Below, piece by piece: positions 1-29,165 of a stretch of DNA of 29,410 bases (position 1 is the first letter of the stretch; each line of letters begins with the position of its first letter). This DNA comes from Plasmodium relictum (lineage: Eukaryota; Apicomplexa; Aconoidasida; Haemosporida; Plasmodiidae): contig NW_021628728.1 in NCBI RefSeq assembly GCF_900005765.1, positions 1 to 29,410 on the forward strand, written 5' to 3'. The translations under genes and the position numbers were made by a program. The notes below the pieces were generated by a model that did not search any database, was not told the origin of the DNA, and saw nothing but the letters and a program-made list of their open reading frames with translations.

Positions 1-1117
1 CTCCACTATTTAGGGGAAGTAATGATATTACTATATTTTGCTCTCTTTGATTTATTAATTGCCCGTTTAATGACTTTGCTAGAGTATTAAACAAACAAAT
101 TAATAAAGAGCATGTATAACTAAGTATACGTTTATATATATATATTCGTTTTTATTATATATATATATACTGTTTTTCTTATGATGCATAATATTTAATT
201 GAAGTTAAATTTTACTGCATCTTTTAATAAACCTATTAACAGTTATAAATGAGTTTTTATTTACAAAGAATTAATATCTTCTTTTAATTAAAAACATACA
301 AATAATTTATAACAATTTATTAAGTCAAAATTTATGATATTCAATGTTATTTCAAAAATATACATTGAATAATACATAAACATTTCTCTTATCTCTTAAG
401 TTTTTAATAAGTTAACATTTCTTTCTTTTTATTTTTATTTACACTAAAAATTAAAACATATTATAACATAACATAACATTCAAAAACTCTTCCAAAAAAA
501 AAAAAAATATTAATTTTTTTTTTTTTTTTTAATTACATAGATGTATATATATATAAATAAACAAACAAAAAAAAATAACTTTATTTTTTTTTTTTTTATA
601 TAGGACTAGCGTCAGTGCATGGCTAACTTGTACGTATACAACTAGCAACTAGCTTAGCATGCTACAAAAGGTTAATAATACCTTTTATTAACCACTCTTT
701 GACTTGTTTTATAATTTCTAACCCTTTTTGTATTTCTTTATCAATTTTTCTATCCTTATTATTCAAATCTTCTAATTGTGAGAAGTTGTTTTTATCACAA
801 ATATCAAAATAATCTTTTGGTTTTAATATATTTGTAATATCTAATTTTTTCTTACGATGATCAGTTACTTGTATTAAATTTCTCATCTGTTTTTCATATA
901 TTTCATTAGTTTTATTGTTTAATAGTTTTATCTTTGACAAAGGAATCTGTATTTCTTTGCCTCTATAATAAATGAGTATGGTTTTTAGATTCCCATTTTT
1001 GACATTTATTACTCTATGCGAGAATGACCAACGTGGTTTATATTGCCCATTTCCACTATAATGTTTCATTTGATTTCTCTTATATTCAGATAATTCATAA
1101 GATATAATATCTCCCAC
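1..1117 (-). pseudogene. pol C-terminal region of element 1 (integrase C-terminal domain), split by a solo LTR
   Basis: This region encodes the tail of pol after the integrase core. A segment at about 940-1060, with YYRGKEIQIPLSKIKLLN, resembles the SH3-like C-terminal domain of retroelement integrases (a basic 'xGKEI...SKIKL' strand pattern). No chromodomain is recognisable. The same segment recurs on the plus strand at 8324-8710 with about 85-90% identity. The open frame runs from 1117 into the LTR at 694, so its last residues are LTR-derived. The original tail resumes at 1-47 and stops at 31-33 (TAG on the minus strand), just before the polypurine-like stretch. It is out of frame with the integrase core at 1263-1781. 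Non-functional. Confidence 0.75.
48..694 (-). repeat. Solo LTR A in the pol tail, TSD CTCTT
   Basis: On the plus strand it starts TGATTTATTAATTG and ends TTATTAACCA, so its sense direction is minus. It is 647 bp long and flanked by a perfect 5-bp direct repeat, CTCTT, at 43-47 and 695-699. Pol-tail sequence continues on both sides, as shown by alignment to 8680-8745, so this is an insertion and not the element's own 3' LTR. It contains (TA)n and long A/T runs, and one copy of the GTCAGTGCATGG tail motif. Confidence 0.9.
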
Positions 1118-1262: not shown

Positions 1263-2114
1263 CTATTCCATATATCGAAAAATAAGGTGTTTCTCCAATA
1301 ACACCATGAGGGTGTTATTATATATTAAAACGGCGTTTCTAACTATTTGTTCAAAAGGAAACTCTTTTTCATATAACGTTTTAAGTATATAGTCGAGACT
1401 TTTATGAAAACTTTCATTTATACCGTTTCCTTGTGGATAATACACATTAGTATGATACAATTTTATCTGTAATTCATTAATAATATAATCTTTAAATTCT
1501 TGATTCATATATATTGAACCTCGATCTGTTAAAATACTTCTGGGGCATCCAAATATAGGGGCCCATGTATTTCTTATAATATTTATTGCATCCTTAGATG
1601 TAGGAGCTTTATTTGTCACATTTGTTAACATAAAATGCGAATAATGGTCAATTGCTACTTGTATATAATATTCTTTATCTTTCCAAGTTCTAGGACCTAC
1701 AATATCTAATGATATCATATCAAATATATTAGGTTTTGATAATGCTTGATTTACATTTGGTTTAAGTCTTTTATTATACATTATTTGACATATTAGACAA
1801 TTTGAAACATATTCTTCAATTTCTCTATTGATATTAGGCCATCAAAAGTGTTTCTAAATTATCTCTAATGTTTTATTTACTTCACAATTCCCTGTAAACT
1901 TACTCCTATGAAACCAATACATTAAATGATTTCTATATTTTTCTGGTATATATAGTTTTCCTGTTCTATAGTGAACTGGAAATTCATTCTTCCATACTAC
2001 ATCTCTTGGTATATCATTCTGATTTTCCCATACTTCATCAGTAATTTCTTGACAAGATGGGATATCATAAATATCTTTATATTCTTCTGAAGGTTTATTG
2101 GAACACAATGCCAC
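1263..2114 (-). pseudogene. Integrase of element 1 (zinc-binding and DDE core domains)
   Basis: The core at 1263-1781 shows the DDE triad. The first D is in SLDIVGP, the second in LTDRGS, and E is in NGINESF, with 36 residues between the second D and the E. The upstream part (1782-2114) carries the HHCC zinc-binding domain: an FHRSKF segment, a KHF-WP segment, and C-x2-C in NCLICQ just before the core. Two in-frame stops (TAG, then TGA in place of the expected Trp codon) lie near 1844-1858, in the zinc-binding domain. The core ends early by frameshift near 1290. Element 2 (15598-16060) has the same two stops. Integrase would insert the cDNA and make the 5-bp target duplications seen here. Confidence 0.88.
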
Positions 2115-2119
2115 ATAAT

Positions 2120-3390
2120 TTGGAAAGTATCATTTTCTATTGATCGAGTGATCAAATCAACTAAACTATTTTGTACTTCTTCAATATATTAAATTTCTAA
2201 ATTAAGTTCAGAAAATCTCAATTTCCACCAATACAGTTTTTCAGTATTGATTGAATCCATTCCAATTAAACTTTTACAATCAATTTTCATTAATGCTTTA
2301 GATCCTTTAATATAATAATCGAATGTTACACAAGCTACTACTATAGCAAATAATTCTTTTTAAACTGTACTCCATTTTCTGTGAACATCATTTAATTTCT
2401 TAGATGTATAATGGTTTTTTATTAATTGGCCGTTTAATGACTTTGTTAGAGTATTAAACAAACAAATTAATAAAGAGCATTTATGACTGAGCAAAATTTT
2501 ATTACGATTTTTAATAGCCTTATTAATTGTTATAAATGAGTTTTTAATTACAAAGAATTACTTATTCTTTTAATTAAAAGCGTATATACAAACTATAACA
2601 ATTAATAAAGTCAAATCTTTATATTATTCAATGTTATTTTTAAAATATAACATTGATTATACAAAAATTATTAATCTTATCTTTTTAATTTTTAAAAAGA
2701 TATTTAAAATAATAATTAACAAAAATTTTCTTAAACAAAACAACCAAAAAAAAAAAAAAAAAATTATTTTTTTTTTTTTAAAATATTTCAAAACAAAAAT
2801 AAAACAAAAACAAAAAAATATTTATATATATATATTTTTTTTTTTTATTAGTGTTAGTACACAATTAGTTTGTACATACACATACACAAACTAGCTTAGT
2901 GTACTACAAAAATTATAATATTCTCTATTACTCAGTCAGTGCATGGGTACTTGTAGATACACGTACAGTAACCTAGCATTTTTTACTGAAAAAGGTTAAT
3001 AATAACCTTTATTAACCAAATGGATAAACTTAGTGTCACCGGCATCATTATTTATCTATGTCAACACAGATCCTATAGAATAATATAAAGCATCCATATA
3101 AATAGTATACGATTTTCCTAACTAGGGAAATGACAGATAAATTAGTTCAGCCATTTTATTCTTAATTTGTCCAAATATTTGTGAATGTTCTTCATTCCAT
3201 TCAAACTTTTTCTTTTTAGTCAACAAAGGAACTAATTTAGAAGTCCAATTTGAAAAGTCTCTTATATAATTCCTATAATAATTAGCAGCTCCTAGAAAAG
3301 ATTTTAATTGTTTCTTTGATTTAGGTCTTTCTGCTTTAATAATTGTTTCTACTTTATCTAATGAAGGTCTTATTCCTTATCTATCTATTA
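2120..3390 (-). pseudogene. RNase H / connection region of element 1, split by LTR B
   Basis: Translations of 2120-2409 and 3024-3390 match the continuous RNase H-encoding stretch of element 2 (about 16260-16900). The LTR at 2415-3018 separates the parts. The distal half includes a 'CKSLIGMDSI' segment and WWKLRFSEL, a recognisable Ty3/gypsy RNase H pattern. The proximal half is the RT connection, with a 'KSFLGAANYYRNYI' type motif. There are several stops. RNase H removes the RNA template during reverse transcription; this copy cannot encode it. Confidence 0.75.
2415..3018 (-). repeat. Solo LTR B inside RNase H, TSD AATGG
   Basis: It is 604 bp in minus-sense orientation. Element 2 has uninterrupted sequence at the matching site (near 16576-16582), which pins the insertion. 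AATGG flanks it at 2410-2414 and 3019-3023. The left terminus has drifted from TGA to TTT, while the right end TTATTAACCA is intact. It belongs to the two-unit tail subfamily, with the 'cagt(g/a)ca' tail block duplicated at about 2848-2930 and 2931-3018. Confidence 0.88.
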
Positions 3391-3394
3391 TTTG

Positions 3395-4180
3395 TCATAA
3401 ATAAATAATAGAGGCTTTATATAATTCGCATTTTTCAATATTTATTCCAAGATTGTTGTCCATCAACAATTTATAAACTCTTTTTAAAACAGTATGATGC
3501 TCATCTGTAGTTTTTGTCAAAATGATGATGTCATCAATATACACAACTATACAATTCTCTTGAATTAATTCCATAAAAATGTTTTCCATAATTCTTTGAA
3601 ATTAGGTAGGACTTGTTTTCAATCCAAATGGTAACAAATTAAACACAAATGTACCACGTTTGGGAACTATGAAACTTGTATATTGCTTGCTATTCTCTTC
3701 TAATGCAATATTCCGAAAACGATTTTTGAGATCTATTTTTGAAAACCATGTAGTACCATGAAATGTTTGAAATATATGTTCCATATGAGGAATAACATAT
3801 AAATTATCTAATATAAATTTATTTAAATAACGATAATCTATAGTGGTTCTCCACTGTCCATCTTTCTTCCTTACCATTACAATAGGTGAAGTCCATTCAG
3901 CATTAACAACTTTACTTATAACATTCAATTGTAACATTTCATCTACTTTTTGATGTAATATTGTTAACATTTCTTCACTTAATGGTCTAGGGTTACAACG
4001 ACGAGCTTTTCCTTGTACCTTAATAGAAACTTTGTATTTATCATTGGGATTCATATTTTTATTTTCCCAAATTTTAGCACTCTTTTCTAATAAAATTTTC
4101 ATTTTATCTTTATCTTTCTGATCATTTAAATCAGATTTGTCTATGAAATTTTGTATTACTTCTTGTTTTGGTTTTTCCAC
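3395..4180 (-). pseudogene. Reverse transcriptase of element 1
   Basis: The piece at 3602-4180 has the finger/palm signature: SPIVMVRKKDGQWR, then DYRYLN, then motif A WFSKIDLKNRF with its catalytic Asp. After one TAA stop (CAA in element 2's equivalent), 3395-3589 carries the catalytic box VVYIDDIIILT (YxDD). All three metal-binding aspartates are therefore still present, but the gene is split by the stop and sits one base out of frame with the upstream protease, overlapping it at 4156-4180. RT copies the element RNA into cDNA, primed next to the 5' LTR. This copy is inactive, but it is better preserved than element 2 at the catalytic box. Confidence 0.92.
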
Positions 4181-4848
4181 TCTTCTGTATTTTCAGTTTT
4201 AACTTCCATAACATATGTATCTTTCTCATATTCTTCTTGAATAATAAGTCTTAATTGTCTCATTATCGTTATGCTAAGTAAAATTAAAGGTTTATTTTCA
4301 TTTATGATTACAAATCTTATTCTAATTGTTCTGCCATTATATAGCATTTTTATCACAATCTTTTTAGATTTGCTTGCATCATTATGAACAAATAATCCTC
4401 TAATTGAAAAAGATGGAATTTTAAAATCAGTCTTTATATTTAATTCCTTTGCAGTATAAGTTGATATGGTACTTACGTCTGCTCCTGAATCTAGTAAGAT
4501 ATTTACTATTTTTTCATTAACTTCTATTAATCGTCTTCTATACTTCTTACAATCTTGATTGTCTTCACAGTATCCAATTTTATTAACACAAGATATGTCT
4601 CCTTCTGGTTTATCTAAATAATCATTATCTTCAGACTCTTTTACTGATTCATCTTGTTCATTAATCTTATGAACTCTACTTCGTTTTCTAATAAAGTATT
4701 CATCACTTTCCTTAGCTTGTTTTTCTTTATACCTTTCTTTTTCCCTCTCTTTTTGTTTTGCGATATATTCCATCTGTTTATTAAAATATTTTTTCATTTG
4801 ACGAATTTTCTGTAGATTAATTTCATTCTTGAACATTTTAACATGCAC
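4156..4848 (-). pseudogene. gag-pol protease region of element 1 (retropepsin-like)
   Basis: Residues about 1-110 are lysine/glutamate-rich and probably a linker. Around residue 117 comes ILLDSGADVSTIS, the catalytic D-[ST]-G-A box of retroviral-type aspartic proteases. A later LLSITIMRQL segment fits the hydrophobic C-terminal strand seen in these enzymes. The frame equals that of gag, which supports a gag-pro fusion. It is separated from gag by stops at about 4880-4945 and shifts by one base into RT. The matching box in element 2 is DTGADVSTIS. The protease would process the polyprotein. Confidence 0.85.
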
Positions 4849-4944: not shown

Positions 4945-6434
4945 TCAATTTTCGCACCTTCTTTTATGGCGTATGCAATCTTTCTTTAAATGACCCATTT
5001 CTCCATAACAATAGCATTTATTATAATTTTGCTTTCTATCCTTATTGATACCATTATCATTATAAATTTTATTTGTGGCTACTACACATGCATCCGTATT
5101 TTTACTTATCTTCAATCTTTTATTTTCTATTTTTAACAAATACTTTTTTATTTCTTTAAAATGTTTATCTATTTTCTGATTCATTATTTGTTCTTTTAAA
5201 AATGTTTCTGGAATGTATCTTTTAAAATATCTCCAAATATCCTGTCTACTTATGCTATTATTTTCATTAAAGCATAAACAACTAAGAACATATAAATTAC
5301 AATATGTAATAAATGAGCTAATGGCTTCCCTTACATATGACATTCTTTGAGCATTGCATAATTTTCTCATTAAAATAAAATTTTCATCTACATCTTCAAA
5401 TAATATTTTAGCTAATTTAATTTGAAATTGTAATATATTAACAATTTCATTATCTATTGATAAATTAGATAAATCATGTGCATCAATATTTGATGTCAAA
5501 GATTCTAATATCATACATGTCTCTACTTGGTTAATAAAAGCTATTATTAACCTTTTTCAGTACACTATGCTAGGTTACTGTACGTGTATATACAAGTTAC
5601 CCATGCACTGACTGGTTAACAAAAGATATTATAATTTTTTGTAGTACACTAAGCTAGTTTACTGTACGTACATGTACAAACTAGTATGTACTGACGCTAA
5701 TAAAAAAAAATATAAAAAAATTAAAAAAAAAAAAAATATATATATATTTTTTTTTTTTTTGGGGAAATTTTTAAGAAAGAATAATAATAATTTTAACTCA
5801 TAAAAATTTAAGATATAAAGCTTATAATGTTTCTGTTATAATCAATGTATATTTCAAAATAACATTAAATAAATTAAATTTTTGACTTTATTAATTGTTA
5901 TAATTTATTTGTATGTTTTTAATTAAAAGAAGATACTAATTTTTTGTAAATAAAAATTCATTTATAACAATTAATAGGTTTATTAAAAGATGCATAAAAT
6001 TTAACTCAAATTAAATATTATGCATCATAAAAAAACTATATATATATAATAAAAACTAATATATATATATATATAAACGTATATTTAGTTATACATGCTC
6101 TTTATTAATTTGTTTGTTTAATACTCTAGCAAAGTCATTAAACGCCCAATTAATAAACCACTACTCTAGATATTCCTTGCATCTTTGCTTTTATTTCAAA
6201 TATTCTAAACCAATTAAAGTAATGTTTTAAAGATCTATCGCTGAATTTTGAAAGCCCTTGTGGTATCTTGGTCCTAATCTTATCTTTATTATTCCTAATT
6301 TCAAAAACATATGGTTGATTAAGCTTTATTATATCAGCAAACATTTCCAATCCTAGGTTTGACAATTCCTTGTTCACTTCAGACTTGTTAATCCAATGGA
6401 TTTCTGTTTGCGCCAGTTTCGAATTTCCTACCAT
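4945..6434 (-). pseudogene. gag of element 1, split by LTR C, with zinc knuckles
   Basis: The N-terminal part lies at 6166-6434 and the rest at 4945-5522, with an LTR between them. The helical middle segment (ILESLTSNIDAHDL onward) fits a Ty3-type capsid domain, but this is inferred from position and not from a motif. The C-terminus carries a zinc-knuckle remnant, CYCYGEMGHLKKDC, in which the second Cys of C-x2-C-x4-H-x4-C is Tyr. A second knuckle follows (CEN-stop-NIIGYLAKEC), with a TGA in place of its second Cys. Gag would bind RNA and form the particle. The start ATG at 6432-6434 is uncertain: it lies in a different frame from the element 2 start, and the aligned ATG here reads AGG. Confidence 0.75.
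5528..6160 (+). repeat. Solo LTR C inside gag, TSD CTACT
   Basis: It is 633 bp and plus-sense, opposite to element 1. It starts TGGTTAATAA and ends AATTAATAAACCA. A perfect CTACT flanks it at 5523-5527 and 6161-6165. It shows both terminal hairpins clearly: the 5' hairpin has arms 5529-5537 and 5544-5552; the 3' structure has outer arms 6101-6110 / 6148-6157 and inner arms 6116-6122 / 6137-6143. It has the two-unit tail. Confidence 0.93.
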
Positions 6435-6443
6435 TGTGCCAAT
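6435..6443 (-). promoter_or_regulatory. Candidate primer-binding site / leader of element 1
   Basis: Immediately inside the 5' LTR end (minus strand) the sequence reads ATTGGCACA, followed at once by the ATG used by the gag fragment. A tRNA-primed element needs TGG (complement of tRNA CCA) here, and TGG is present two bases in. Element 2 has ATTGGAGGCAATAGT at the same place. The specific tRNA cannot be named, and self-priming cannot be excluded. Confidence 0.4.
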
Positions 6444-8002
6444 TGATTTATTAATTTCCTGCTTAATGACTTTACTAGAGTATTAAACAAACAAATTAAT
6501 AAAGAACTGTATAAATAAATATATGTTTTTAAATATATATATAATTGTTTTATTATATATATATAGTTTTCTTATGATGCTGATTTATTAATTGGGCGTT
6601 TAATGACTTTGCTGGAGTATTAAACAAACAAATTAATAAAGAGCATGTATAACTAAGTATATGTTTATATATATATATATGTATTAGTTTTTATATATAT
6701 ATATAGTTTTCTTATGATACATAACATTTAATCTGAGTTAGAACTTACTGCATCTTTTAATAAGCCTATTAATTGTTATAAATGAATTTTTATTTACAAA
6801 GAATTAGTATCTTCTTTTAATTAAAAACATACAAACAATTTATAACAATTAATAAGGTCAAAACTTTAATTTATTCAATGTTATTTTGAAATATATATTG
6901 ATTTTAACAAAAACATTATAAGTTTTATCTTCAATTTTTATAAGTTAAAATTATCTTTATTATTTCTTAAAAATTTCCCCAAAAAAAAAAATTAAATTTT
7001 ATTTTTTTTATTTTTTTTTTTTTTATTAGTGTCAGTACATATTAGTTTGTACATACACATACAATAACCTAGCATAGTGTACTGAAAAAGATTAATAATA
7101 GCTTTTATTAATCAGATATTCAAAGACTCGGATAAAAGTAATGAATATCCAAGTTAATAAAGAGCAAATTTTAGGACTCCTTTATAATTTTTTATTATAG
7201 ATTTTATTTATAATACAATATTAATTAAATCACTAAAAATTTGAAAATCTATGAAAGTTCAAAAAAAAAATAAAAGCAATCCACTTGCTAATCTTTTCCA
7301 TTTAAAATTCTTCTTCTTTTCCCAAAAAAAAAATAAAAAAAAGACAATATAATTATAACGAGATGCGTCTTAAAAAAAAATATAATGAGACACACTAAGT
7401 TAGTTAAGGTTTTAATAGCTTATTTTTTTTTTTTTTAGCATGCAATATTTTCCTAAAGAAGACATAATTATTTAAATTTTAAATAATTAAAATGCATATT
7501 AAGGGAAATGGATTTATTCATTGATCAGATGCATAATATTTAATCTGAGTTAAATTTTACTGCATCTCTTAATAGACCTATTAATTGTTATAAATGAGTT
7601 TTTAATTACAAAGAATTAGTTATTCTTTTAATTAAAAACATACAGACAAATTATAACAATTAATAAAGTTAAAACTTTAAATTATTCAATGTTATTTCAA
7701 AAATATACATTGAATATAAAATAAACATTATTCTATTTATATCTTAAGTTTTAATAAGTAAAAATTAATTTATTTAATTCGAAAAACAAAAAAAAAAGTC
7801 TACAAAAAAAAAGTAAAAATTAATTTTAATTTTATTTTTTTTTAATTACAAAGATGTATATAAATAAAAATAAACAAACAAACAAAAATAACCTTATTTT
7901 ATTTTTTTTTTTTAACTAGATTCAATGCACGGCTAACTTGTCCTTACATGACTAGTAAACTAGCTTATTGTACTACAAAAGGTTAATATCACATTTTATT
8001 AA
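6444..8002 (-). repeat. 5' LTR of element 1 (LTR D), interrupted by 6581-7527
   Basis: The two parts, 6444-6580 and 7533-8002, together make one LTR of about 607 bp. It begins TGATTTATTAATTTCC on the plus strand, just upstream of gag. The right end reads TTATTAACTA instead of TTATTAACCA. It then abuts plus-strand integrase sequence at 8003, which is the outer boundary of element 1. Confidence 0.82.
6581..7527 (-). repeat. Composite LTR insertion in LTR D, TSD GATGC
   Basis: The 947-bp insert is flanked by GATGC at 6576-6580 and 7528-7532. It consists of an LTR of the common family (6581-7114, ending TTATTAATCA) fused to a divergent LTR of about 425 bp (about 7103-7527, ending TTGATCA). The TTTATTAATCA at the junction is at once the end of the first and the start of the second. 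The divergent LTR keeps the family's terminal stem-loop in base-changed form (see findings). Confidence 0.75.
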
Positions 8003-8743: not shown

Positions 8744-9360
8744 TGGTTAATAAAAAAATTGTTATTAACCTTTTGTAAAATAAAATGAGCTACCAGTTAG
8801 GAAAATATAAGTCATCCATGCACTGACTCTAATTAAAAAAAAAATATATAAGTTTTTTTTTTTTGTTTTGTTTATTTTATTGTGTATACATCTTTGTAAT
8901 TAAAAAAAAAAAAAAAATATTACTTTTTTTTTTTTTGTCGGTTGACGTTTGTTCAAATTAAAAAGAGAATTAATTTTTGTTACATTAAAAAATTAATTAA
9001 TGAAAAAGTATAATGTTTATGTTGTATTTTATGTGTATATATTGAAATAACATTGAATAAATAAGAACTTTAACTTTTGCTATTTATTATAAATTGTGTG
9101 CGTGTTTTTAATTAAAAGAATATACTTATTTTTTGTAAATAAAAACTCAATTATAAAAGTAAACATATATCTGTTAAGCAATACAGAATAATTTAATGGA
9201 TAATATAGATATTATACCTTATGAAATGCTAATATATGTATAATAAAAATGAGTATATATATATATATATATATAAACGTATATTTATTTATACATACCC
9301 TTTATTAATATGTTTGTTCAATACCCTATCAAAGTTTATGAGAAGACAATTAATAAATCA
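8744..9360 (+). repeat. 3' LTR of element 3 (LTR E)
   Basis: It is 617 bp, starts TGGTTAATAAAAAAATTG and ends CAATTAATAAATCA. It directly follows the pol tail and the polypurine-like tract in the same orientation, which fixes the sense direction for the whole LTR family. It ends about 40 bp from the stop codon of the exported-protein gene at 9404. Confidence 0.9.
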
Positions 9361-11243: not shown

Positions 11244-11808
11244 TGATTTATTAAATGAGTGTTCCAAAACTTTGCTAAAGCATTGAACACACAAATTAAT
11301 AAAGAGCACATATAAATAAGTATACTGATTTTTGCTATATAAATAAGTAAATTTATATAAATAATATTCAATTTAGTTATACATCTTTTTATTGCTTCAG
11401 AAGCATTAATTTACTTTAACAAATGTAAACGTTATTTTTTATTAAAAATTTAAATCCTCTTTTAAATTATTATGAAAAATTATTTAATTACAACAAGTAA
11501 CAAACTTAATTTAGAATTATTTAACTAATTTTAAGACCAAAACCAAATGTAACAAAATAATATACTTTTTTTTTATTTTAAATAAAGTTTTTTGTCTTTT
11601 CTTCAAAAAAAAAAAAAAAACAAAAAAAATAATTCTATATTTTTTTTTAAAACTGAAAAATACAATAAAAAGAATAAAATAAAAAAAAAATAGTAATATA
11701 TTTTTTTTTTTTTGTTTTAAATCTATAGTTAGCACACTGTTAATTTGTATCTTCCTGACTTTAAAGCCAAATTCTTTATTATAAAAAGTTAATATCTTTT
11801 ATTAACCA
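11244..11808 (-). repeat. Divergent LTR (F)
   Basis: It begins TGATTTATTAAATGAG and ends TTATTAACCA (565 bp). The terminal stem-loop is preserved with changed bases (GTGTTC 11259-11264 pairing GAACAC 11285-11290). No target duplication is found: the right end runs straight into another LTR fragment. Confidence 0.78.
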
Positions 11809-15007: not shown

Positions 15008-15597
15008 TGTTTAGTAAAAGATGTTATTAGCCTTTTATAATGCATGAAGTTTACTAGTTAGTACAAGTAAACCATACAATGACTCTAATTAGATAAATAT
15101 ATATATAAATATATATTTTTTTTGTTTATTTTATTCTTTATATATTTTTATAATTATTAAAAAAAAAAATATTTAATAAATTTTTTTTTTGGGAGTTAAT
15201 TTTTAATTGAAAAATAAAAATTAATGAATAAAAAGTAACTATAAGAAAACTTATTTCTTTTAATAAACAAAAAGTATAATGTTGGTGCTATACTCGATAT
15301 GTGTATTTCGAAACGGCGAATAACTTAAAATTTAATCTTTTGTTATAATTATATTTACGTTTTTAAACTAAAAGAATATACTCCTTTATAAATAAGTATA
15401 AACTTGTCAAAGTTAATATATATCTGTTAAACAATATAGAATTACTTAATTCTAATAAAATGTTATATATTATAAATATTTCTATATATAATAAAAACAA
15501 GTATATACACTAAAAATCTATTTAGTTATGCATGCTCTTTATTAGTTTGTTTGTTTAATACTCTAGCAAAATTATTACATAGGTAATTAATAAATCA
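15008..15597 (+). repeat. LTR J abutting the integrase of element 2
   Basis: It starts TGTTTAGTAAAAGATG (drifted from TGGTTAATAA) and ends GTAATTAATAAATCA at 15597. The integrase of element 2 is cut right there. The left and right flanks do not share a 5-bp duplication, so the junction probably arose by recombination or deletion. Confidence 0.75.
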
Positions 15598-18368: not shown

Positions 18369-19318
18369 TTAATTTTTTAATATTTTAACACGTATATCAT
18401 ATTTTTTATTTGTTATTATTCCTTTAATTTCACCTTCATCACCTCTCAATACTTTATTTTTGCATATCTTCGCTAAGCGTCTTATTATGTTACAAATTTC
18501 ACATTTTTCCTTAAGGTGTATGTAATCTTTCTTTAAGTGGCCCTGTTCTACACAACAGTAACATTTAATATATGCTTTATTCTCAATTCTATTGGATCCT
18601 CCAATATTCCTACGTTTTAAAGAGTATACTTCAACTGCTGGATTTAAAGTTTTAGTAACCACCTTATTTTCTTATTTTAATGCATAGAGCATAGATTCCA
18701 TTAATGATATGTCTTTTGGAAAATTACTAGGTAATGCAGTTAAATACTCCGTGGAATGAAGCCTAAATGTTTTCCATATATCCTTCAAGGAGAAACATCT
18801 CTCTTTTCCAAAGCATAAATAATTAACTAACAACATACAATTCGTGTTAAATGATTTTATGGCCTCAGACATGTTCAACTCCCTTTTTGCAATAATTATA
18901 TTTTGTAATTTCACCTTTCATTACTATCAATAAACAATAATCCAGCTATTTTTACCTTTAATTGTAACATATTTATTATTTTATAATTTTTTGTTATATT
19001 GGTTATTTTTTTGGAATAAATTCTTCATAACAGCAATTTCATTATCACATATGTTTCCATTTTTGTTAACATTTTCATATCTACTAAATCCTCAAAAAGT
19101 TCAAATTATCTAAAATAATTTATCATTGACTTATAATTTTGGTGGTCTATGTAATACCTTGACTTTATTAAGTTCTTCCTTTTTTATGTTAAACACATAG
19201 GACTCACTGATATTTACCATCTCTTCAAATATATCTAATCAAAATTTATAATGTTTTCTTTCATATTGGATTTTTGATAATCCAAAGGGGTTTTGTTTGC
19301 GTCGGTTTCAAATTTCAT
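18369..19318 (-). pseudogene. gag of element 2, with zinc knuckles
   Basis: A start ATG at 19316-19318 (MKFETDANKTP...) lies 15 bases inside the LTR end. Fragments follow at 18672-18914 (capsid-like, including SEAIKSFNTNC and SLKDIW, aligned to element 1) and 18369-18662. The last holds CYCCVEQGHLKKDY, a zinc knuckle whose final Cys is Tyr. A second knuckle-like CEICNIIRRLAKIC lacks the His. Several stops lie at 18915-19260. Confidence 0.72.
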
Positions 19319-19333
19319 ACTATTGCCTCCAAT
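19319..19333 (-). promoter_or_regulatory. Candidate primer-binding site / leader of element 2
   Basis: ATTGGAGGCAATAGT on the minus strand lies between the LTR end and the gag ATG. It aligns with ATTGGCACA plus the following bases in element 1. TGG sits two bases in. The leader is very short, so primer binding and the gag start nearly overlap. Confidence 0.4.
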
Positions 19334-19990
19334 TATTTTATTAATTGGATGCTTTAAAATTTTACTAGCATATTAAACAAACAAATTAATAAAGAGTATG
19401 TATAACTGTATATACTAATTTTTAGAGTATATAATTATTTTTAAATTATACAAATATTTATCACAAATAGCATTTAATTAGAGTAAGCAATTTTATATTG
19501 CTTAAAAAACTTATATCTACTTTGACAAATGTATACTTTTTTAAAAAGAATAGGCATACTCTTTTAATTTGAAAATGTATAAAAATAATTTATAACAAAT
19601 AACAAAGTTAAAATTTAAGTTATTCGCTGCTATTTAAAAATATACAAATTGAGCATAACACAAGCATTATACATTTTATTTATTAAAAAAAATTAAAAAG
19701 TTTTCTTATAGTAATTATTCATGTATTAATTTTTTAAATTTAAACTAAAAATTCAGTTCTTTTTTCCATTTTAAAAAAAAAAAAAAACTCCAAAGAAAGA
19801 AAAATCATTTTTTTTTTTTTTTTTTATATTTATAAGCATATATCAGAATAAAATAAACAAAAATTAAAAATATATCTATTTATTTTTTTTTTATTTTTTT
19901 TAACTAGTATCAGTGCATGGGTAAGCTTGTAGTTTCCTTAGTATACTGACTTTATATATTATAAAAGGTTAAAAACATCTTTTATTAACT
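19334..19990 (-). repeat. 5' LTR of element 2 (LTR K)
   Basis: It starts TATTTTATTAATTGGATG (TG drifted to TA) next to gag and ends TTTTATTAACT (about 657 bp). It contains one copy of the GTGCATGG tail block at 19912-19922. Confidence 0.8.
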
Positions 19991-20370: not shown

Positions 20371-20879
20371 ATATTCTTTTTATTTATTTTATTCTTTATA
20401 TATATATATAAAAAAATATATTTTTTAATTTTTTTTTTTTTGTTTAAATAAAAAAAAGGAATTAATTTTTATTTAAAATATAAAAATTAACGCATGAGAA
20501 GGAACTACAAAAAAACTTTCTTTTAATGAATAAAAAATATAATGCTTGTGTCCTATTCAATTTGTATATTTTTAAATAACAGCGAATAACTAAAAATTAG
20601 ACTTTGTTATTTATTACAATTTAATTTTTGTACGTTTCTAAATTAAAAGAATATGCTTTTCGTTATAAATAAGTATACATTTGTCAAAGTAAGCATAAGT
20701 CTGCTCAGCAATATACAATTGTTTACTCTAATTAAATGTTATTTATGATAAATATTTTTATATATAATATAAAAATAATTATATACTCTAAAAATCAGTA
20801 TATACAGTTATATATACTCTTTATTAATTTGTTTGTTTAATACGCTAGCAAAGTCATTGGACAGACAATTAATAAATCA
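20371..20879 (+). repeat. LTR, right arm of the palindrome
   Basis: A plus-sense LTR lacking its U3 start but ending properly in GACAATTAATAAATCA at 20879. The stem-loop near the end keeps pairing through G-U wobble (GTTTAAT with ATTGGAC). Confidence 0.75.
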
Positions 20880-22560: not shown

Positions 22561-23059
22561 CCCCTTTATCAGCTCTCCAGTCAGGAAAATGGAGCTATTT
22601 GTGTACTAATACTACTAAAAAAAAAAATCATTTTTTTTTTTGCTTTTTGGCTATGAAAATTTGTGAATTTCGTTAGATATGGGGTTTAATTATATTTTGA
22701 GATAAAAGTATTATTAAACTTTTTACTTTAAAATAAATAAGAAGTATATTTTTTTTTCTTCTTTGTTATATTTAATTTTTTTAAAAAAAAAAGTTTAATA
22801 GTTTTTAATTAAATTACCTTACATAATTGTAATTTTAAAAAGTATGCATATTTATTTAACAAAAATATAATATACCTTAAATAAGTGCCTTTGAAGCAAT
22901 AAAAGCTGCTTAATAAAATTTATATTACGAATACATATTTTACCTATATTTAAAGTGAAAATAAATATAAAATAAAAGTATAATTATTTATACATGCTCT
23001 TTATTAATTTGTTTGTTCAATACTCTAGAAAGGTCATAAAGAGGACAATTAATAAATCA
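22561..23059 (+). repeat. Degenerate plus-sense LTR (P)
   Basis: The right end is typical (ATGCTCTTTATTAATTTG ... GGACAATTAATAAATCA at 23059). Near the left, CCAGTCAGGAAAATGGAGC resembles the LTR block at 28122-28140. The U3 start is lost. Confidence 0.6.
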
Positions 23060-27410: not shown

Positions 27411-28026
27411 TGGTTAATAAAAGCTATTATTAACCTTTTTCAGTACACTACGCTAGGTTACTATACGTGTATATACAAGTTACCCATGCACTGACTGGTT
27501 AACAAAAGATATTATAATTTTTGTAGTACACTAAGCTAGTTTACTGTACGTGTATATACAAACTAATATGTACTGACACTAATAAAAAATAAAAAAATAA
27601 AATTTAAATTATTTTTTTTTTTTTGTGGGGAAATTTTTAAGAAATAATAAAAATAATTTTTTAACTCATAAAAATTGAAGAAAAACTTATAATGTTTTTG
27701 TTATAATCAATGTATATTTTGAAATAACATTGAATGAATTAAAGCTTAATTTTTGTTATTTGTTATAAATTTTGTGTGTGTTTTTAATTAAAATAATATA
27801 CTCATTCTTTATAAATAAAAACTCTTTTATAATAATTTAACATATTTATTAAAAGATGCGGTAAAAATTAACTCATATTAAATATTATGCATCATAAAAA
27901 AACTATATATATATATATATAAAAACTAATATATATATATAAACGTATACTTAGTTATACATGTTCTTTATTAATTTACTTGTTTAATACTCTAGCAAAG
28001 TCATTAAACAGCCAATTAATAAATCA
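27411..28026 (+). repeat. Solo LTR Q inside the RBP-like pseudogene, TSD ACATT
   Basis: It is 616 bp, TGGTTAATAA to AATTAATAAATCA, flanked by perfect ACATT at 27406-27410 and 28027-28031. It is antisense to the RBP-like gene and has the two-unit tail. It is closely related, in inverse orientation, to the last ~330 bp of LTR S. Confidence 0.93.
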
Positions 28027-28078
28027 ACATTATAAATTTTTCCATACTTTGAATTTAATTTGAAGCATTATCTATGAT
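28027..28078 (-). pseudogene. Short RBP-like pseudogene remnant between LTRs
   Basis: 52 bp of host sequence lie between LTR Q and LTR R. It begins with the ACATT duplication, so it is contiguous with 27410 in the pre-insertion gene. Too short to show a domain. Confidence 0.6.
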
Positions 28079-28550
28079 TGGTTAATAAAAAAAATTTTAT
28101 TAACCTTTTGTAAAAATAAAATGAGTTACCAGTCAGGAAGATAGAAATCAGTCATGCATTGACGCTAGTTAAAAAAAAATATATATATATAAAGTTATTT
28201 TTTTTTTTTTGTTTATTTTATTGTATATACATCTTCGTAATTAAAAAAAATAAAATAAAATTATTTTTTTTTTTTTGTGGGTTGATGTTTCTAAAAAAGA
28301 GAATTAGTTTTTAGTTACATCAAAAACTTAATGAATGAAAAATATAATGTTTATGTTATATTTAGTGTATATTTATTTGAAATAACATTGAATAAATTAG
28401 AGTTTTGACTTTTATTAATTGTTATAAATTATGTATGTTTTTAATTAAAAGAGTATACCGATTCTTTGTAAATAAAAACTCATTTATAACAGTTTAACAT
28501 GTCTATTAAAAGATGAAATATAACTTAATTCAAATTAAATATTATGCATC
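28079..28550 (+). repeat. LTR R, truncated at GCATC
   Basis: A plus-sense LTR starting TGGTTAATAAAAAAAATT. It stops after ATTATGCATC, losing the (TA)n part and the U5 end, where LTR S begins. Confidence 0.8.
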
Positions 28551-29165
28551 TGATTTATTAATTGCCCGTTTAATGACTTTGCTAGAGTATTAAACAAACA
28601 AATTAATAAAGAGCATGTATAACTAAGTATACGTTTATATATATATATTCGTTTTTATTATATATATATATACTGTTTTCTTATGATGCATAATATTTAA
28701 TTGAAGTTAAATTTTACTGCATCTTTTAATAAACTTATTAACAGTTATAAATGAGTTTTTATTTACAAAGAATTAATATCTTCTTTTAATTAAAAACATA
28801 CAAATAATTTATAACAATTTATTAAGTCAAAATTTTATGATATTCAATGTTATTTTGAAATATATATTGATTTTAACAAAAACATTATAAGTTTTATCTT
28901 CAATTTTTATAAGTTAAAATTATCTTTATTATTTCTTAAAAATTTCCCCACAAAAAAAAAAAATAATTTAAATTTTATTTTTTTATTTTTTATTAGTGTC
29001 AGTACATATTAGTTTGTACATACAGGCACAGTAAACTAGCTTAGTGTATCACAAAAAATTATAATATCTTTTGTTAACCAGTCAGTGCATGGGTAACTTG
29101 TATATACACGTATAGTAACCTAGCGTGGTGTACTGAAAAAGGTTAATAATAGCTTTTATTAACCA
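28551..29165 (-). repeat. LTR S, mosaic
   Basis: A complete minus-sense LTR (615 bp), TGATTTATTAATTGCCCG to TTATTAACCA. Its first ~310 bp match LTR A (48-360) almost base for base. The remainder matches LTR 6581-7114 and the inverse of LTR Q. The two flanks do not share a duplication. Confidence 0.88.

Follow-up and report, generated by a model that had tools for sequence, protein, structure and literature searches.

Long terminal repeats (LTRs) of a Ty3/gypsy-type element in Plasmodium relictum carry at their U5 end a two-tier inverted repeat, and we consider it probable that this is an RNA stem-loop of the genomic RNA, ending 5 nt upstream of a tRNA-Ser(GCT) primer site. Selection on its pairing is supported at the level of source lineages by the pattern of substitutions. 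The leader that follows, between LTR and gag, complements up to 59 nt of the primer tRNA in one contiguous block.

The window, by which we mean the whole 29,410-nt contig that was analysed (about 79 percent A+T, from a very AT-rich genome of 22.6 Mb in 514 contigs), contains gypsy-type pol fragments on the minus strand in the order protease - reverse transcriptase - integrase (Table 1), though the protease match lies below the Pfam cut-offs. LTRs start with TGGTTAATAAAAG and finish with AATTAATAAATCA. TG...CA ends with a short target repeat were found both at LTR C, which is a solo LTR because it is flanked by the 5-bp repeat CTACT, and at the LTR at 48-694, which has AAGAG at both flanks; a tRNA primer site immediately follows the 5' LTR. 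The candidate polypurine tract upstream of the 3' LTR is a stretch like CTAAGTGGTGGAGTA, purine only in part, which precedes the LTR start at 7 of 12 scanned loci. On its pol order, LTR ends and primer site, the element carrying the hairpin is a Ty3/gypsy-type LTR retrotransposon. Its sense orientation was assigned from the LTR start lying about 500-700 bases behind integrase and from the preceding CTAAGTGGTGGAGTA-like stretch, in nested regions that hold LTRs in both orientations. The end that the initial annotation had called the sense 3' end of the LTR is therefore U5. A reading of the whole tract 6160-6440 as coding was rejected, its left part (6380-6441) being leader and primer site.

Table 1. 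Retrotransposon features of the window, by position and strand.
Feature	Position	Strand	Remarks
U5 hairpin, family A	48..108	-	same as commonest form, -16.1 kcal/mol
Integrase core fragment, gypsy-type	1263..1781	-	PF00665, E 3.1e-10
U5 hairpin, family A	2415..2475	-	
Reverse transcriptase fragment	3602..4180	-	PF00078, E 1.2e-14
Weak aspartyl protease match	4156..4848	-	best E 1.2e-4, below Pfam cut-offs
Target-site duplication CTACT, left copy	5523..5527	.	flank of LTR C
LTR C, solo LTR, family A, 633 bp	5528..6160	+	TG...CCA; ends TGGTTAATAAAAG / AATTAATAAACCA; CTACT on either side
Outer stem, 5' arm, LTR C	6101..6110	+	TTTATTAATT, read in sequence
Inner stem, 5' arm, LTR C	6116..6122	+	GTTTAAT, read in sequence
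Apical mini-stem ACT/AGT with 7-nt loop CTAGCAA, LTR C	6123..6135	+	TAGCA complements part of the primer-tRNA anticodon loop
Inner stem, 3' arm, LTR C	6137..6143	+	ATTAAAC, read in sequence
Outer stem, 3' arm, LTR C	6148..6157	+	AATTAATAAA, the LTR terminus; read in sequence
Target-site duplication CTACT, right copy	6161..6165	.	flank of LTR C
Primer binding site and decayed tRNA-Ser-complementary leader	6380..6441	-	
U5 hairpin of 5' LTR	6444..6504	-	retains primer site and leader
U5 hairpin, family A	6581..6641	-	
U5 hairpin, family B LTR	7104..7162	-	arms 7115-7122 / 7142-7149; LTR end replaced by the next LTR's start
U5 hairpin, older A copy	9300..9360	+	
U5 hairpin of LTR F	11244..11304	-	G-C pair in place of family A's T-G
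U5 hairpin, decayed	15537..15597	+	
Primer binding site and decayed tRNA-Ser-complementary leader	19270..19331	-	
U5 hairpin of second 5' LTR, decayed	19334..19394	-	
U5 hairpin, family A	20819..20879	+	wobble pairs
U5 hairpin, decayed	22999..23059	+	
U5 hairpin, family A	27966..28026	+	

The arms and coordinates described earlier for LTR C, a divergent LTR and LTR F proved exact. The 14-nt loop reported for LTR C has the right span but is not open, since it contains a 3-bp apical stem, ACT/AGT, closing a 7-nt loop. Predicted folds connect the inner and outer tiers via G-U pairs in the commonest form (ending GGGC) and leave the middle mostly unpaired in LTR C (GCCC ending, -10.3 kcal/mol). The divergent LTR turned out to belong to a separate family, B, and the distal TTAATAAA that had been assigned to it is part of the start of the next LTR (TGATTAATAAAAGC). 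That family B LTR is broken at GAATATC and fused to a family A LTR start, and the identical junction occurs twice (window 7100-7165; L033 near 2400). In family B U5 ends, the main stem has to compete with another, CTTGGAT/ATCCAAG, which is partly retained via G-U pairs.

Across the genome there are 962 matches to the U5-end pattern CTTTATTAAT-N{20,48}-AATTAATAAATCA and 131 to its AAC variant, while both patterns read backwards gave no occurrence in the whole genome. Copies were analysed as a sample of roughly the first hundred listed matches per pattern, and because the search patterns fix the outer arms, the inner stem alone is under test. A tree of 117 copies, built from 330 nt upstream of the hairpin, set family B (arms GGATATTCA / TGAATATCC) apart from family A and left a few other copies on long branches; a later tree drew on 216 copies and 310 nt of upstream sequence. 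We assessed stability by keeping the outer arms and shuffling the inner region 500 times. Each of the six natural forms tested, from A, F and B, was more stable than at least 98 percent of shuffles, with z of -2.7 for the commonest A form, -3.1 for L045, -2.9 for LTR F, -3.1 for L051, and -7.5 and -7.2 for two B forms. Among nine other old or odd copies, the inner stem was no better than shuffles in eight and weakly better in L050 (p 0.03).

Do diverged copies change both arms together, as the initial annotation had claimed? Among 115 distinct family A ends in the listed matches, linked change was found at pair 20-41 only (10 ends with C-G; 11 both-side changes against 2.0 expected), and the other six core pairs had 0 to 2 both-side changes each. 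The 67 distinct family B ends yielded, over 11 pairs, one double change that stays paired and two that do not. Single copies for the most part lack paired change; within families the copies behave as neutral decay, which goes against the claim at the level of copies. G-U wobble had also been offered as a sign of retained pairing. Wobble pairs do occur in the LTR ending at 20879, but such pairs are weak evidence because A to G and C to T decay yields G-U for free, and we dropped the reading of G-U pairs of single copies as compensation, as they mostly look like ordinary decay.

Since copies should decay freely once inserted, selection is expected on internal branches. We therefore compared internal with terminal changes on a tree built without the hairpin columns (294 columns of AT-rich sequence, the analysis assuming copies without recombination). 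At the seven core pairs, changes ended paired in 22 of 25 cases on internal branches against 68 of 139 on terminal ones (p=0.00018), the 25 internal changes leaving 18 Watson-Crick pairs, 4 G-U pairs and 3 broken pairs. Over 11 pairs the counts were 36 of 49 and 128 of 268 (p=0.0007). When the 3' partners were moved 1-3 columns either way, p in the six slid registers was 0.18-0.88 for the core and 0.14-0.66 for the 11 pairs. On bootstrap trees p was below 0.05 for the core in 20 of 20 (0.0001-0.021) and for the 11 pairs in 18 of 20, and a smaller tree built earlier, on 91 A tips, pointed in the same direction (22/30 vs 76/173 single-site events). Family B alone, with few internal changes, gave 2 of 3 internal vs 20 of 45 terminal (p=0.44). 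Along the 61-nt A form, the 3' arm (columns 38-48) changes far more than the 5' arm (columns 13-23), with 212 vs 83 terminal changes over 11 columns each, an asymmetry that pairing by itself does not explain.

Covariation was scored with a custom R-scape-like null on 206 tips, using two tree-based nulls and APC. Pair 20-42 in joint numbering, which is 20-41 in A numbering, ranked first for covariation among the 1653 column pairs, yet is not significant with all of these counted (E about 0.18-0.2 or 1.4 under the two nulls); counting only the 14 proposed pairs divides E by about 118. Under these nulls none of the other 13 inner and apical pairs covaried when APC was applied, and 15-47 was the sole further pair with a raw-G p below 0.05. 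The initial annotation had named a lack of excess covariation over the phylogenetic background as evidence against its reading: most single pairs do lack it, and the exceptions are pair 20-41, when proposed pairs only are counted, and the contrast between internal and terminal branches.

The split between the families is a further source of paired change, all of it sitting on one deep branch point. Between A and B, pairs 14-47, 15-46 and 17-44 are altered on both sides with pairing retained (for 17-44, two of five old A copies start unpaired and a third lacks the double change), and pair 22-39 is lost in B. From natural L045, an old A copy, to a natural B form there are 13 inner substitutions, in which three pairs changed on both sides and all three remained paired. 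Random placement of the same 13 substitutions gave -4.1 (sd 2.0) kcal/mol vs -18.7 for B, with 0 of 400 placements as low, and kept a mean of 5.7 pairs vs the observed 9, with 7 of 400 as high. With four other old A copies as start, 0 of 400 placements were as low in energy, and 1 to 6 of 400 kept as many pairs. Chimeric A/B arms were weaker (-11.8 and -7.5 vs -17.6 and -18.7, the A form being a composite). A with the F 3' arm was also weaker, at -9.9, and F with the A 3' arm was the strongest of all, at -19.2. The earlier idea that paired change marks a selected structure is supported for source lineages, on internal branches and across the A/B split, and not for single decayed copies.

Could the inverted repeats arise without selection on an RNA fold? 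They might be DNA-level binding sites, for instance for integrase or a host DNA-binding protein, with RNA pairing incidental. The outer arms are much alike in A and B and their 3' arm is the LTR terminus, a likeness partly built in by the search patterns, and the other LTR end opens with TGGTTAATAA-6 nt-TTATTAACC, so that TTAATAA-type motifs stand at both ends. Yet the inner arms differ between A and B and remain complementary, and on internal branches the majority of core changes depart from T-G or G-T, states that pair in the sense strand only. We regard a DNA-level site as unlikely.

Paired change could also be mutational, if hairpin-templated correction or template switching during reverse transcription copied one arm onto the other. 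Reverse transcriptase crosses the hairpin in each cycle and aberrant products such as the L185 palindrome (below) are present, but paired outcomes would then be expected on all branches, whereas about half of terminal core changes (68 of 139) end paired, and wobbles and mismatches persist in many copies; this origin seems to us improbable. Chance palindromes in AT-rich sequence, with ancestry mimicking paired change, would suit the base composition of the window and the many pairs that lack covariation beyond ancestry. They account poorly for the z of -7.5 in family B, for the 0 of 400 random placements and for an internal/terminal contrast that is register-specific, and we give this explanation very little credence.

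What, then, might the stem-loop do? Its position, orientation, adjoining primer site, predicted stability, lineage-level pairing and A/B paired changes are observed; we infer that it folds in RNA and helps in setting up minus-strand priming. The primer site begins 2 nt past the LTR end at 25 listed places, 23 of which read TGGCGACAACGGCAGGAA, exactly complementary to the 3' end, CCA included, of a tRNA-Ser(GCT) gene. Of the roles proposed earlier, priming fits best with this perfect complement and with the 5 nt that separate the stem end from the TGG of the site; integrase recognition may account for the invariant terminal arm but leaves the lineage-specific inner arms unexplained. In the priming model, the hairpin would hold the LTR terminus within its stem and leave the primer site open, the apical loop (UAGCA in family A) would offer the primer an extra contact with the tRNA anticodon loop, and the leader past the primer site would offer further contacts, over up to 59 nt of tRNA-Ser(GCT). 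The loop CTAGCAA of family A has five bases complementary to the anticodon loop, LTR F six and family B three; at least five complementary bases arise in 3 percent of shuffles of the 14-nt loop. TAGCA is retained in 92 of 141 of the 61-nt copies, and loop bases G30 and C31 decay fast. Pairing of the apical loop with the anticodon loop is suggestive on these counts. A check for Tf1-type self-priming found a primer site perfectly complementary to tRNA-Ser, which argues against such priming, and predicted folds of two leaders that keep the U5 hairpin.

We aligned 18 distinct leaders to the tRNA complement; the window leader at 6380-6441 stands outside these 18 and is of the old, decayed kind. Thirteen of the 18 share differences from the tRNA (1-3 inserted bases near position 17, A/G at 26, AAA at 31-33 and often T at 45), and the younger of these match the tRNA at positions 1 to 16-18. 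The other five, L154, L175, L180, L181 and L185, are without the AAA block and match about 41-59 nt with at most 2 mismatches before divergence, L180 at 59 of 59; L183 and L184 are of the same kind. In the genome, about 40 of 49 candidate leaders were scored, one of the 40 being the tRNA gene itself. Downstream sequence pairs perfect with old-form copies: L180 with L176 (A-run before ATG), L175 with L177 (AAACC) and L184 with L002 (AATCAC). Because perfect copies fall in different lineages that also have the old form, we read the complement as re-copied from the tRNA; the best reading is that it was apparently renewed at least three times, and alternatively it may have spread by recombination between copies. 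The old complement ends at TCCAA, tRNA position 27 in the class II numbering assigned here, next to G26, which we take to be the classic dimethylguanosine site, and the 18-nt unit stops just before A58. A read-through in L180 stopping exactly at G26 was rejected, as older copies of its lineage already end there and a new boundary cannot be fixed.

A wider reading, which we put forward tentatively as possible, is that of a composite tRNA-capture leader, in which an anticodon-pairing U5 hairpin is joined to a primer site of up to 59 nt (to position 27, before G26). Plus-strand DNAs reading past A58 would still transfer because the RNA holds the longer complement, so that primers lacking m1A58 would be tolerated, and the genomic copies would record reverse-transcription stops on the tRNA. 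In HIV-1, m1A58 sets the 18-nt plus-strand strong stop, and products running to the anticodon loop or beyond are reported not to be active templates (PMC13191261). The younger ordinary copies here are similar in matching the tRNA over the first 16-18 nt only, a length set in HIV-1 by m1A58 (PMC13191261); unlike in HIV-1, longer tRNA copies are found integrated. Can extended complementarity spare a retroelement the m1A58 stop used by HIV-1? If the composite reading is true, a U5 fold with lineage-level pairing would be linked to a primer site roughly threefold longer than usual, and dozens of genomic leaders would document tRNA modification and strand transfer in a parasite on which direct study is difficult.

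Retroviruses of the Rous sarcoma virus type have a stem-loop, the U5-IR, next to the primer binding site. The hairpin described here resembles it as an inverted repeat within U5 that lies immediately before a tRNA primer site; unlike the U5-IR, its stem takes in the LTR terminus itself, and it is known from sequence and predicted folds. We read it as a probable RNA element of this known kind beside the primer site. More unusual than the hairpin is the leader, whose tRNA complement is contiguous and was apparently renewed in several lineages. Ty1 and Ty3 have bipartite primer sites and use two segments, and copia and Ty5 use half-tRNA priming, the Ty5 primer end being made by cleavage in the anticodon loop (PMC5371799). 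The element shares with all four primer contacts beyond or away from one short acceptor-end match (PMC5371799). It differs from Ty1 and Ty3 in that its complement runs unbroken from the CCA end across the T arm, the variable arm and the anticodon arm. The LTR-proximal part of its site has no anticodon match of the kind expected for half-tRNA priming and starts with TGG, the complement of CCA. Among the titles and abstract openings found in searches of open-access literature, none describes extended tRNA complementarity in primer sites, and the literature found contained no description of a U5 hairpin in the avian malaria element.

Within Plasmodium, such elements are reported from two bird parasites only in the literature found. 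Boehme et al. 2018 (PMC5880244) place Ty3/gypsy fragments mostly in subtelomeric positions in P. gallinaceum and P. relictum. The element is of the same kind as theirs, and the primer site of their P. gallinaceum copy complements tRNA-Ser(GCT); they give a 15-nt site, against a complement of up to 59 nt here. The word 'hairpin' occurs 0 times in the main text of that paper, where we found neither a U5 hairpin nor a 59-nt tRNA-complementary leader. A P. relictum transcriptome in birds includes a transcript that matches the P. gallinaceum Ty3/gypsy element and is differentially expressed, and by the same account almost nothing is known of the expressed P. relictum element (PMC8093664).

Several minor observations concern the LTRs and their products. 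The inverted repeat at the U3 start has a variable loop (e.g. window 5528-5552). Covariation in this hairpin was considered and rejected: its C-G/G-C double changes came mostly from an unrelated internal motif admitted by a loose search. At its pair 3-24, A-T replaces G-C in 3 of 53 distinct TG-starting sequences, one of the three being a clear LTR start. L185 (G000:C48:21815-21886) is a palindrome of an LTR end, about 41 nt of tRNA-Ser complement and an inverted LTR end, and from this arrangement it looks like an aberrant reverse-transcription product. LTRs are often closely spaced, as nested, head-to-tail or opposed pairs (window 27414-29162; contigs C51, C110, C186, C256, C289 and C13).
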